Source: Desulfonatronospira sp. (GTDB lineage: Bacteria; Desulfobacterota; Desulfovibrionia; Desulfovibrionales; Desulfonatronovibrionaceae). From it: a DNA stretch of 52,156 nt. Both the position numbers and the translations under genes were made by a program. The notes beneath the pieces were generated by a model, which was given only the letters and a program-made list of their open reading frames with translations, was not told the origin of the DNA and ran no database searches. How positions within the stretch are numbered: position 1 is the first letter of the stretch; each line of letters opens with the position of its first letter. Location: positions 1-52,156 of the forward strand of contig PWFB01000048.1 in assembly GCA_003553695.1 (NCBI GenBank). The letters run 5' to 3'. Of this stretch, positions 16,772 through 19,867 are shown piece after piece.

Positions 16772-16788
16772 AGGCAAGGAGCTTTTCC

Positions 16789-16822
16789 AAAAAAAGGCCG
16801 GACAGATGTCCGGCCTTTTTTT
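16789..16822. terminator. Bidirectional terminator between convergent units
   Basis: Seven A, then GGCCGGAC, loop AGAT, GTCCGGCC and seven T. The 8-bp GC-rich stem with A and T runs on either side terminates both the FemAB-like gene (+) and the hmc-like operon (-), whose last stop codon is 27 bases away. Confidence 0.95.
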
Positions 16823-16848
16823 GTCTTTTATTGAAGTTCAATGTGTTA

Positions 16849-17205
16849 TCAGGCTGTACTGCCGAAACGGTCCAGGAAACTCTGGGGGGGGACATTACCG
16901 GTGAAGCTCCATATGAGCGCCCCAATCCAGCCCACTACAATAATCCCCAGAAATACATTCAGAGCGGCTATCTGGGCCAGTTTGTTGTGGCTTCTTATCA
17001 TGGCGATGATTGTTGGAGCAAGGTAGATAACAGCCCCGATTCCGAACAGAGCCATGTTTTGGACGAACCACATGGCACTGCTTATGACGTGGGACAGATC
17101 TCCCTCAATGCCTACAATGGGGTCTGGCCGGCCGTCAGCGTAAGCAAGAGACACCGACAAAAGAACCAGGATTACGCCCAGTACGGCAAATTTCATTGGT
17201 TTCAT
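16849..17205 (-). CDS. Small membrane protein with superinfection-immunity domain, in hmc-like operon
   Basis: A 118-residue protein. Residues 1-23 look like a cleavable signal peptide ending AYA. A first membrane helix (about 50-70) runs into YLAPTIIAMIRSHNK. A second (about 80-101) reads ALNVFLGIIVVGWIGALIW. This P-T-I-I-A-x-x-R-x-H-x-K / N-x-F-L-G-x-x-x-x-G-W pattern is that of the Imm_superinfect family named after phage T4 Imm. The gene is the last of the hmcB-hmcC-hmcD-like operon, 75 bases after hmcD, with a good AGGAG site. The ABC-less, phage-less setting suggests a structural or coupling role in the respiratory module rather than phage exclusion; this is inference. Codons 105-108 contain a run of eight C. 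Confidence 0.8.
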   Translation of the reverse strand: MKPMKFAVLGVILVLLSVSLAYADGRPDPIVGIEGDLSHVISSAMWFVQNMALFGIGAVIYLAPTIIAMIRSHNKLAQIAALNVFLGIIVVGWIGALIWSFTGNVPPQSFLDRFGSTA

Positions 17206-17280
17206 ATCTTTTCTCCTGTTTTCAAGTCTTATGCAGGTCCCGGGAAGAGGCCGCGTTGTGTTCCGCTGCCCCCGGGGACA

Positions 17281-17406
17281 CTAATCTTCGTCCCGACCGG
17301 TTAAAAACAGCCACCAGGCAAGCATGGTGACCACAGCCACACCCATAAAGATATAAGCCCAGTTCTTGGTGAATATATCAAATTCAAGCATTGTATAAAA
17401 TTCCAT
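17281..17406 (-). CDS. hmcD: HmcD-like 41-residue membrane protein
   Basis: Reading the minus strand from the ATG at 17406-17404 to the TAG at 17283-17281 gives 41 residues, starting MEFYTMLEFDIFTKNWAYIF and ending WWLFLTGRDED. There is one hydrophobic helix (about 17-36), followed by a short charged end. A GGGAGG site lies 4 bases before the ATG. Position right after hmcC, size and topology match HmcD of the Desulfovibrio Hmc complex (about 47 residues). The identification rests on context as much as on sequence. Confidence 0.75.
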   Translation of the reverse strand: MEFYTMLEFDIFTKNWAYIFMGVAVVTMLAWWLFLTGRDED

Positions 17407-17448
17407 GGTTCCTCCCAATGTGATAGCCCTTAAGTCAGGGCAGGGTTT

Positions 17449-18627
17449 TTAGTGAGAGCCCTTGAATTCCGGATGCTCGTAAAAGATGGGCATCCGTGTG
17501 CCGATGAACTTGAACAGAATCAGTCCCACGGTGACAACAAAGATGGTTATACCGATTTCCGCCAGAGCCGGAAAGTACTTCAGCTCTGAGGGCAAGTGAT
17601 AGTTGTAGGCCACCAGGGAAACATTGAACCGGTTGAAGATGATTCCGAAGACAGCCACCACAGCGGTCCACTTAATTAGCCTGACGTTTTTGTCCCGGAC
17701 CCCTTTGGCATACAGAAAGGCAGGCAGGGCAACGAAGCCGAGCATTTCCAGGCTGAACATGAAGCCGTAGAACGTGGGCAGGTAGCCCCAGTTGGCATTG
17801 AGGACCACTCCGAAGAATTTGATGAAGAAGTACCCGGCCATGATCCAGGCTGCAGCCTTGGCAAATCCGAAGGTCACATGGGGGGTACCCTCCAGGTGCT
17901 CCTTGTCCATTTTGTTATGGTAATAGCGATGCGAAAGGGTGCTTTCGAAGATGACCATGGACAGCCCGGCAAACATGCTGGATACAAAGAAATAGACGGG
18001 CAGATGCGTTGAATACCACAAGGGGTGCATTTTGCTGGGCAGAATCAGGTACAGGGCGCCCAGGGAAGACTGGTGCATGGTGGAGAGAATGACTCCGAAG
18101 ATGGTCAGCACCAGAGTGAGTTTGATCAAGATATTCCTGACTCTTTTGAGCCTCAGCCATTCCAGGGGGGCCGGCAGCCATTCCAGAAAAAGGACCGTCA
18201 GATATAAAAAGACGCACAGACCTACTTCAAACAGCACCGAGGTCGTGCCCTGCTGCACGAAAATCGGGTAAGCAAGCCTCCAGGGCTGTCCGACGTCGTA
18301 ATGCAGGGCAAAGACCACAAGGGCATAGCCCAGAAATGCAGTGAGCACTGCAGGTCTGACTGCTGCATGATATTTTTTGATTCCAAATACATAACAGGCC
18401 GCAGCTGTAGTATACCCGCCGGCGGCCAGAGCCACTCCGCAGAGCAGGTCGAAACTGATCCAGATTCCCCAGGGATAGTAATCGTCCAGATTGGTCACTG
18501 CAGCCAGTCCTCCAGTGAACCGCAGATAGGTCAGATAGATGCCCATGAGGACGATTAGCCCGGCTATTACATTAAAGGGCGTGATCCAGGGGGATTTGCC
18601 TGTGTCATGATGGTTATGGTTGCTCAT
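17449..18627 (-). CDS. hmcC: HmcC-like NrfD/HybB-family integral membrane subunit
   Basis: A 392-residue protein with about ten hydrophobic helices, of the NrfD/PsrC/HybB family that exchanges electrons with menaquinone. Family segments: TPFNVIAGLIVLMGIYLTYL with FTGGLAAVTNLDDYYPWGIW at the start, GVALAAGGYTTAAACYVFGI, and LSTMHQSSLGALYLILPSKM in the middle. Gene order and wording match HmcC of Desulfovibrio. It begins 2 bases after the hmcB stop. No haem or flavin motif is seen in it, as expected for the family. Confidence 0.9.
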   Translation of the reverse strand: MSNHNHHDTGKSPWITPFNVIAGLIVLMGIYLTYLRFTGGLAAVTNLDDYYPWGIWISFDLLCGVALAAGGYTTAAACYVFGIKKYHAAVRPAVLTAFLGYALVVFALHYDVGQPWRLAYPIFVQQGTTSVLFEVGLCVFLYLTVLFLEWLPAPLEWLRLKRVRNILIKLTLVLTIFGVILSTMHQSSLGALYLILPSKMHPLWYSTHLPVYFFVSSMFAGLSMVIFESTLSHRYYHNKMDKEHLEGTPHVTFGFAKAAAWIMAGYFFIKFFGVVLNANWGYLPTFYGFMFSLEMLGFVALPAFLYAKGVRDKNVRLIKWTAVVAVFGIIFNRFNVSLVAYNYHLPSELKYFPALAEIGITIFVVTVGLILFKFIGTRMPIFYEHPEFKGSH

Positions 18628-18629
18628 GA

Positions 18630-19700
18630 TTAATGATCCTCCCTCTCGGTTTTGGCAGCGGCCTCATTCAAGGCCTTTCTTACTTCCTCCTCGATGGCGG
18701 CCTTGTCCAGGGTTTCAGACTTGGAAAGTCTTTCCGCCAGTTTTCGACCGACTTCGGGTCCTGCCTCGGCAATAACCTGGGATACAAAACTGTCCCTTTC
18801 TTCCTTGGCTACCTTTTCTCTGCGCTTGGATATGGCGTAGGCACCCACCAGAAGAACCGGCCAGAATGAAGCAATGAGTGGGACGCCACCCAGAGCACCT
18901 GAGGTATAGTCTCCGGCGGCTCTGGTTCCAAGGTCCATGCGCATTCCGACATCTTCAAAGGGCTCTGCAGATATGTAGATCCAGTTGGTGCCGCCCATTT
19001 CGTGTTCCCCGTAAATATGTGACTGGTATTTGTCAGGGTTGTTGACTATTCTTTTGCGGGCTTCCTTGAGAACCTCCTCCCGGGTGTTGAAATACATGGT
19101 CCCGGTGGGGCAGATTTCCACGCAGGCCGGTTCTCTGCCTTCCTTGAGCCGGTGTTCGCAGAATGTGCACTTGGTCACCAGGGGATCAAGGGCTATGTGG
19201 TACTCATATGCCGGAATGTTGAAGGGGCAGGCCATCATGCAGTACCGGCAGCCGACACAGACCCTGGGGTCGTATGTAACAGCCCCGTCCGGGCGCTTGG
19301 CAAAGGCCTTGACAAAGCAGGAATGGGCGCAGGCAGGCTCCAGGCAGTGCATGCACTGGATTTTCCGGTAAAGATCTCCGGCTCCCGGAGGTTTGTCGTC
19401 GTACTGGTTGACCAAGGTGTAGGTTTTCCAGTCCGTTCTGCGGGTTTCCTCAAAGACCCCGGTGTCATAAAAATCTACATCAGGCTCCGGTAACCGGTTC
19501 TCATAGTTGCACGCATCTTCACACTGCCGGCAGCCGATGCACCGGGTGACATCGAAAAGGACTGCATAGCTGTCAGGCAAACCTTTGACGTCCTTGACCG
19601 AGGCACCTGTGACCCCATCTTCCTCGGCCAGGACCTTTCCGGCCCCTGCCACGCCTAAACCGGCGACACCCATGGCCCCTAGAAATTTTCTCCGGTTCAT
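18630..19700 (-). CDS. hmcB: HmcB-like periplasmic ferredoxin subunit with membrane anchor
   Basis: A 356-residue iron-sulfur protein. It has a twin-arginine signal (NRRKFLGAMGVAGLGVAGAG). Sixteen Cys fit four [4Fe-4S] clusters: C54/57/60/64, C116/119/124/128, C148/151/154/158 and C178/181/193/197. A membrane helix (about 272-291, GVPLIASFWPVLLVGAYAI) is followed by a charged helical cytoplasmic tail. This layout is that of HmcB and HybA, which pass electrons from periplasmic hydrogenase or cytochrome to an NrfD-type partner. The gene has a strong AAGGAGGTG site and its own promoter. Its usual cytochrome partner HmcA is not adjacent. Confidence 0.92.
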   Translation of the reverse strand: MNRRKFLGAMGVAGLGVAGAGKVLAEEDGVTGASVKDVKGLPDSYAVLFDVTRCIGCRQCEDACNYENRLPEPDVDFYDTGVFEETRRTDWKTYTLVNQYDDKPPGAGDLYRKIQCMHCLEPACAHSCFVKAFAKRPDGAVTYDPRVCVGCRYCMMACPFNIPAYEYHIALDPLVTKCTFCEHRLKEGREPACVEICPTGTMYFNTREEVLKEARKRIVNNPDKYQSHIYGEHEMGGTNWIYISAEPFEDVGMRMDLGTRAAGDYTSGALGGVPLIASFWPVLLVGAYAISKRREKVAKEERDSFVSQVIAEAGPEVGRKLAERLSKSETLDKAAIEEEVRKALNEAAAKTEREDH

Positions 19701-19761
19701 AAAACACGCACCTCCTTGAAAAACAATGTTGGCAGCACTCAGCTCTTAAAAAAGCTCCCAG

Positions 19762-19807
19762 GCATCTTTTCAGTTTCGGCTTCAGGCTCGTAAGACTGAA
19801 GAGATGC
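19762..19807 (-). promoter_or_regulatory. Long leader hairpin in front of hmcB
   Basis: A 13-base inverted repeat (left arm 19762-19774, GCATCTTTTCAGT; right arm 19795-19807, ACTGAAGAGATGC) pairs along its full length with one mismatched base pair in DNA, tolerated as G-U in one RNA strand. The loop is 20 bases. It lies about 60 bases upstream of the hmcB start, inside the predicted transcript. A run of six T follows about 8 bases downstream in the transcript direction, so attenuation is possible but the spacing is not ideal. Confidence 0.55.
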
Positions 19808-19830
19808 TAACCCACCAATTATTAATTAGC

Positions 19831-19847
19831 TGCTCTCATAAAGAGCA
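19831..19847. promoter_or_regulatory. Inverted repeat overlapping the hmcB -10 region
   Basis: TGCTCT-CATAA-AGAGCA is a perfect 6-5-6 inverted repeat that covers the expected -10 element of the hmcB promoter. This is a typical place for a repressor operator. No known consensus was matched. Confidence 0.45.
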
Positions 19848-19867
19848 TTCCTGGCTTAATCTGTCAA
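19838..19867 (-). promoter_or_regulatory. Candidate sigma-70 promoter of the hmc-like operon
   Basis: On the minus strand a perfect -35 TTGACA (19867-19862) is followed by 17-18 bases and a weak -10 (TCTTTA or CTTTAT, about 19844-19838). A strong -35 with a weak -10 suggests an activated or tightly repressed promoter. The predicted leader is about 130 bases and contains the long hairpin. Confidence 0.45.

Follow-up and report, generated by a model that had tools for sequence, protein, structure and literature searches.

The stretch analysed here (the window) is contig PWFB01000048.1, 52,156 nucleotides long, of a draft genome of Desulfonatronospira, a genus of soda-lake bacteria (GCA_003553695.1; contig C121 of genome G000, 2.03 Mb, 92% completeness). 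Its minus strand carries a four-gene set, hmcB-hmcC-hmcD followed by a gene for a 118-amino-acid protein with a PF14373 domain. This set is confirmed as real and represents a genuine reduced variant of the Hmc/Nhc type of redox complex, seen in six of the seven genomes of the genus. Judged from residue conservation and genome content, HmcBCD and the PF14373 protein probably act together as a cytochrome c3:menaquinone oxidoreductase in place of Qrc. The genes and the hairpin next to them are the following:

18630-19700, minus strand: hmcB, 356 amino acids (NF045715, 493.3 bits, cut-off 420)
17449-18627, minus strand: hmcC, 392 amino acids, NrfD-type quinone-reactive membrane subunit (NF045714, 673.5 bits, cut-off 550)
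17281-17406, minus strand: hmcD, hydrophobic membrane protein of 41 amino acids (NF045712, 68 bits, cut-off 34)
16849-17205, minus strand: gene of the 118-amino-acid protein (PF14373, 47.6 bits, cut-off 27.9)
16788-16823, strand open: terminator-like hairpin (A7-stem-T7) between the hmc operon and a convergent FemAB-like gene

The four-gene set and its conservation

The composition given in the original prediction, an HmcB, an NrfD-type HmcC, a 41-residue HmcD and a 118-residue protein of the superinfection-immunity family, was borne out: the first three exceed their NCBIfam equivalog cut-offs and the fourth the curated cut-off of PF14373. HmcC is also above the cut-off of Pfam PF03916 (58.3 bits, cut-off 25.8). 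The HybA and HybB models also pick up HmcB and HmcC, at scores below their own cut-offs. A search of solved structures with HmcC gave no match at 0.001. By HmcC identity (88-96%), four metagenome-derived Desulfonatronospira genomes are the closest named relatives.

HmcC was found in six genomes of the genus (the window, L006, L007, L008, L021 and L022), being above cut-off in all five further loci; HmcD was above cut-off in 3/3 tested. Lack of conservation of the small gene next to hmcBCD had been named beforehand as a finding against the prediction; in fact the 118-amino-acid gene lies beside hmcBCD in all six. The order hmcB-hmcC-hmcD-PF14373 gene and the open frames are kept in 6/6, which is more than chance, and the flanks fall into three contexts. 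The first (window, L006, L022) has FemAB, LysR and ribosomal genes downstream (FemAB and LysR named by Pfam in the window, FemAB by Pfam in L022, the rest by reading), the second (L007, L021) shares a set with a gene resembling HypF upstream and one resembling PlsY downstream (both by reading), and L008 has a separate flanking set. The seventh genome, G396 (82% complete), gave no HmcC match at E 1e-20. Pairwise dN/dS between the genus genomes was 0.05-0.16 for hmcB, 0.03-0.08 for hmcC, 0-0.34 for hmcD and 0.12-0.28 for the small gene; these figures are rough because many dS values exceed 1.

The genes are separated by 2, 42 and 75 bases, and every start has a ribosome site of GGAGG or AGGAG type in front of it. 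A terminator closing the operon had also been predicted. The strong hairpin does lie 25 bases beyond the last stop, but in the terminator scan it is a plus-strand entry only (one of 9 plus-strand terminator-like sites vs. 4.0 expected in shuffles). By our own reading, the minus-strand version also appears to end in a T run, so the hairpin could terminate the hmc operon as well as the convergent FemAB-like gene. The promoter scan gave no match in the non-coding region upstream of hmcB (19701-19867). Two minus-strand promoter-like matches surround the hmcD start (17418-17372) and leave room for separate transcription of hmcD and the small gene; the number of such matches is at chance level (3 vs. 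1.9 expected).

Missing partners and related operons

The predicted absence of hmcA, hmcE and hmcF from the locus held. None of them belongs to the four-gene set, and the window contains no open reading frame of at least 60 amino acids with two or more CxxCH motifs. A multihaem cytochrome gene beside hmcB/nhcB was found neither in the window nor in the five other genus loci (within 5 kb on the same strand, or up to the contig end; short flanks limit this search in L006 and L008). HmcA is below cut-off in all seven genus genomes (best score 47.8 bits vs. 400) and above it in the comparison genomes G040, G297, G412 and G413. HmcE gave no match at E 0.001 in G000, G396 and G398. The HmcE-type matches in G395, G397, G399 and G400 are 36-42% identical, those in hmc-bearing comparison genomes 49-60%, the query's own match set aside. 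In the genus, HmcF-type matches reach at most 43% (34% for the best in G000), compared with 67-73% in G040, G297, G412 and G413. A full hmcAEF set with its own hmcBC copy, named beforehand as the observation that would speak against a reduced module, did not turn up: G000 holds one HmcC (at E 1e-5), no HmcA above cut-off, no HmcE match and only distant HmcF-type matches, HmcB not having been searched genome-wide. In G395, G397, G399 and G400 the HmcE-type and HmcF-type matches lie side by side by coordinates, as in Tmc, and except in G399 a small cytochrome-type match adjoins the pair. The Tmc-like set of G400 is located at L076 and L077. Many HmcF/HdrD-like matches carry one in-frame TGA (e.g., G400:C3:603778-605001 and G000:C161:8296-9294), which may point to selenocysteine in CCG-domain proteins of this group.

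Across the phylum, HmcC was above cut-off in 32 of 395 genomes, and the loci of all 31 besides the window's genome were compared. A multihaem cytochrome gene adjoins hmcB in every one; the cytochromes contain 9, 12 or 16 CxxCH motifs in 30 loci, and one is a contig-end stub. Downstream, hmcE and hmcF are present in 18/31. The other 13 (L043, L044 and L048-L058) combine a cytochrome of 12 or nine motifs with no hmcE/hmcF in the stretch, and the nine-motif set resembles Nhc. The 12-motif cytochromes of L043 and L044 are between HmcA and NhcA in size. Among 12 named loci from outside the genus, ten have hmcA, hmcE and hmcF, and L017 and L020 are cut by contig ends. The small gene is beside hmc in none of the 31 loci; only G297 among these genomes has PF14373 at all, on a contig other than that with hmc.

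The genus operon thus differs from HmcABCDEF, with which it shares the HmcB, HmcC and HmcD equivalogs in the same order, in lacking hmcA, hmcE and hmcF and in having the PF14373 gene after hmcD. NhcABCD, described in passages of PMC8076601 as a TpIc3:quinone oxidoreductase without E and F, has the same B-C-D core but keeps a nine-haem cytochrome, whereas none is encoded beside hmcB in the genus operon. Loss of hmcE/hmcF alone is therefore not new, having precedent in the 13 loci and in NhcABCD. Among the loci compared, only those of Desulfonatronospira combine loss of the cytochrome with a PF14373 partner. A more distant HmcC relative below the cut-off, at L062, likewise lacks any CxxCH-rich gene within 5 kb on the same strand; a B-C pair devoid of a cytochrome is thus not unique in itself. 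In a sister genus (G409, L069:5082-7913), a B-C pair is followed by a gene of 258 amino acids with a weak HmcA match; this set is perhaps Ohc-like, and G409 also holds QrcD.

In the HmcC tree, which was midpoint-rooted, the six genus proteins group together as a single clade (100/100) within a larger one of 38 rows (99/98). The other 32 rows of the larger clade derive from operons with A, E and F (20 rows, one of them, L017, cut before A), from Nhc-like operons (11 rows) and from one further arrangement (L059). The fork holding the genus is unresolved, and full hmc operons also occur outside the 38-row clade. Because the genus HmcC nests among fuller operons, with full operons outside the clade too, reduction by loss is probably the simplest history of the genus operon.

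Retained residues and the proposed role

HmcB is an iron-sulfur (FeS) protein with four cysteine sets for [4Fe-4S] clusters, and all 16 conserved cysteines are kept. Its start reads as Tat-like and its C-terminus as a membrane anchor, which would fit the description of HmcB as a tail-anchored protein in passages of PMC10924467. The CxYC motif is present in 57/57 HmcB proteins, in the window as CRYC with Tyr153. In HmcC, the residues D60, R91, Y101, S130, E134, E149 and H185, aligning with D58, R89, Y99, S129, E133, E148 and H184 of HybB, are kept in 6/6 genus proteins. According to passages of PMC13059093, Qrc function is abolished by mutating the equivalents of HmcC D60, Y101 or S130, or Y113 of QrcC. 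The latter would correspond to the CxYC tyrosine of HmcB, matched here by motif, i.e., by its place between two cysteines, and not by alignment. Hydrogen oxidation depends on R89, Y99, E148 and H184 of HybB (passages of PMC8076601). The seven HybB positions, the 16 cysteines and the CxYC motif together provide the quinone-site and proton-path residues predicted for a c3:menaquinone oxidoreductase. Conservation extends beyond these positions: 28 HmcC proteins of operons containing hmcE and hmcF share 136 conserved columns, and 126 of these are unchanged in all six genus proteins; for HmcB the count is 93 of 110 (27 proteins).

The distribution of HmcC and QrcD was compared in 18 genomes of the family, seven from the genus and 11 others. 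HmcC is above cut-off in 6/7 genus genomes vs. 0/11 others, QrcD in 0/7 vs. 8/11. This near-reciprocal presence is a new observation. In all eight QrcD genomes a NiFe-hydrogenase match scores 296-318 bits and contains an in-frame TGA, which we read as expected of a selenocysteine enzyme; such a match of about 300 bits is found in none of the seven genus genomes. Here the best NiFe-hydrogenase matches are 201 bits (G397) and 217 bits (G400), those in G395, G398 and G399 are at about 71 bits or less (above Pfam's low cut-off), and G000 and G396 have none at E 1e-10. Hydrogen use by the genus is not excluded, because a review (PMC4158274, in the passages available) describes the ability to use hydrogen or formate in Desulfonatronum, Desulfonatronovibrio and Desulfonatronospira. 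The alpha subunit of formate dehydrogenase is above cut-off in 6/7 genus genomes and a contig-end fragment in G399. G000 has one such gene, followed by what reads as the beta subunit; no membrane subunit was evident in this stretch by reading, no family scan having been made there. G000 further encodes at least three class III cytochromes (PF02085), found via the HmcA search. These three, on other contigs (L003:1519-2031, L004:1273-1752 and L005:1654-2256), each have one CX3CH motif (CMTGCH), an unusual haem-binding spacing, in addition to CX2CH and CX4CH.

In other sulfate reducers, soluble enzymes send electrons via c3 to Qrc (passages of PMC13059093). For Desulfonatronospira, we infer a reduced Hmc complex limited to the membrane and its periplasmic side, with the direction of electron flow, the partner cytochrome and the place of the PF14373 protein as parts of this proposal. 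A soluble periplasmic formate dehydrogenase (FdhAB) would reduce the small class III cytochromes c, which would pass electrons through the FeS chain of HmcB to menaquinone at the HmcB-HmcC interface, the protons being drawn from the cytoplasm through HmcC. The complex would thereby take over the task of Qrc, apparently missing from the genus. QrcABCD likewise combines an NrfD-type with an FeS subunit and has the key residues in common, possibly for the same task, but the genus HmcC is far below the cut-off of the QrcD model (111 vs. 570 bits). HybA-HybB of E. coli hydrogenase-2 is also a pair of FeS protein and NrfD-type subunit; it is encoded with the hydrogenase subunits HybO and HybC. The retained residues, the near-reciprocal pattern, the presence of formate dehydrogenase and class III cytochromes and the missing A, E and F are the grounds for the stand-in role.

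Several points weigh against it. E133 of HybB is an addition of ours to the tested positions. At the position of HybB R89, QrcD carries Asn instead of Arg in the alignment, and a change of HybB S129 had little effect in E. coli (passages of PMC13059093). The family pattern was scored with QrcD (QrcA-C were not searched), and it is near-reciprocal rather than strict because neither HmcC nor QrcD is above cut-off in G396 (82% complete), G403 (86%), G405 (96%) and G406 (89%). G395, G397, G399 and G400 also hold the Tmc-like sets described above. As to the fourth gene, it could have its own promoter, and the AlphaFold model of its product (six sequences) is too poor to use (pLDDT 56, pTM 0.31).

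The same complex might instead run in reverse, oxidising menaquinol, driven by the proton motive force, to reduce periplasmic cytochromes and FdhAB; formate or reductant made in this way would feed carbon fixation while the cells disproportionate sulfite or thiosulfate. The ability to disproportionate either compound is described for members of the genus (passages of PMC4158274 and PMC6146748), related NrfD-type complexes run in the quinol-oxidising direction (passages of PMC13059093), and the hydrogenase content of G000, G396 and the genus as a whole, set beside that of the eight QrcD relatives, is in accordance with this. However, direction cannot be read from sequence, the retained residues match the ones on which menaquinone reduction by Qrc and HybB depends, and oxidation of hydrogen or formate is, as the review reports, also open to the three haloalkaliphilic genera. 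We regard the reverse direction as unlikely.

The PF14373 protein

In the 118-amino-acid protein, the PF14373 match spans residues 60-101 and covers all 42 model positions. All six genus proteins are above the curated cut-off (46.6-50.5 bits), and G000 has a single match at E 0.001. Most of the hairpin and the final seven residues (DRFGSTA) are invariant in the alignment of the six, and the linker preceding the latter varies. Hydropathy reveals three hydrophobic stretches. The first ends in AYA in all six proteins, which to our eye resembles a cleaved signal peptide; in that case the interhelix loop RSHN(K/R) would face the cytoplasm and the tail the periplasm. The low-confidence AlphaFold model has helices at 2-23, 37-71, 75-102 and 109-115. 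A solved-structure search with the alignment returned a single match (E 0.73), NCBIfam held no meaningful family for the protein, and PADLOC gave no family at E 1. Within the phylum, PF14373 occurs in seven of the 395 genomes, G000 included; of five other phylum proteins in the Pfam scan, drawn from seven places, one carries an SH3 domain and another matches a zinc ribbon at a score under the cut-off.

Phage superinfection-immunity proteins share the 42-residue hairpin above cut-off, but the genus protein differs from them in its signal-like N-terminus, the invariant DRFGSTA tail and its place in a respiratory operon. The link of the gene to hmcBCD is supported by position and selection, and a generic membrane hairpin reused as an accessory subunit is plausible but unproven. 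The hairpin would pack against HmcC or HmcD, and the periplasmic tail would help assembly or cytochrome docking where HmcA once sat. A more specific version, in which the protein is a true respiratory subunit recruited upon loss of hmcA/E/F, holds the HmcBC core and docks soluble cytochromes in a Qrc-free route to menaquinone, is put forward tentatively. The original prediction of a minimal quinone-linked module is supported in so far as the Hmc core is reduced, of quinone type and accompanied by a new, conserved small gene. Its further claim that the small protein replaces the usual partners is not supported, as no finding links the hairpin with the function of the 16-haem cytochrome, the cytochrome b or the FeS protein on the cytoplasmic side.

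It is rather improbable that the gene is an independent passenger, e.g., a phage-exclusion protein that shares the transcript but stays outside the complex. Among the best matches in phage and plasmid collections are annotated superinfection-immunity proteins, with 38-44% identity across 43-67 residues among the matches listed (best phage match E 9e-7), the match to phrog_1039 has 5.1e-18, and the chance-level promoter-like matches near hmcD would permit separate expression. The place after hmcD is nevertheless kept in six genomes with differing flanks, the PADLOC search was negative, and the phage likeness is confined to the short hairpin, which another protein of the phylum combines with an SH3 domain. 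That hmcBCD is what a once complete Hmc operon has left behind in its decay, as the loss of A, E and F and the long genus stem branch of the HmcC tree (0.52) might suggest, is largely refuted by the selection test (dN/dS 0.03-0.16 for hmcB and hmcC), by the retention of the cysteines and all tested residues and by the frames open in 6/6 genomes, and it is very improbable.

The passages found on Desulfonatronospira and Hmc do not describe the operon; most subscription papers were outside this coverage, and absence from print is not claimed. The papers covered yielded nothing naming PF14373, or a superinfection immunity protein in connection with sulfate-reducing bacteria. To our knowledge, what HmcB-HmcC does by itself is unsettled. 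A genus with no QrcD above cut-off but with an Hmc core devoid of its cytochrome is a natural test of HmcB-HmcC alone. It also suggests a concrete role outside phages, open to test, for a domain that takes its name from superinfection immunity. If PF14373 is indeed a respiratory subunit, the Imm proteins of phages might act by binding such inner-membrane complexes.

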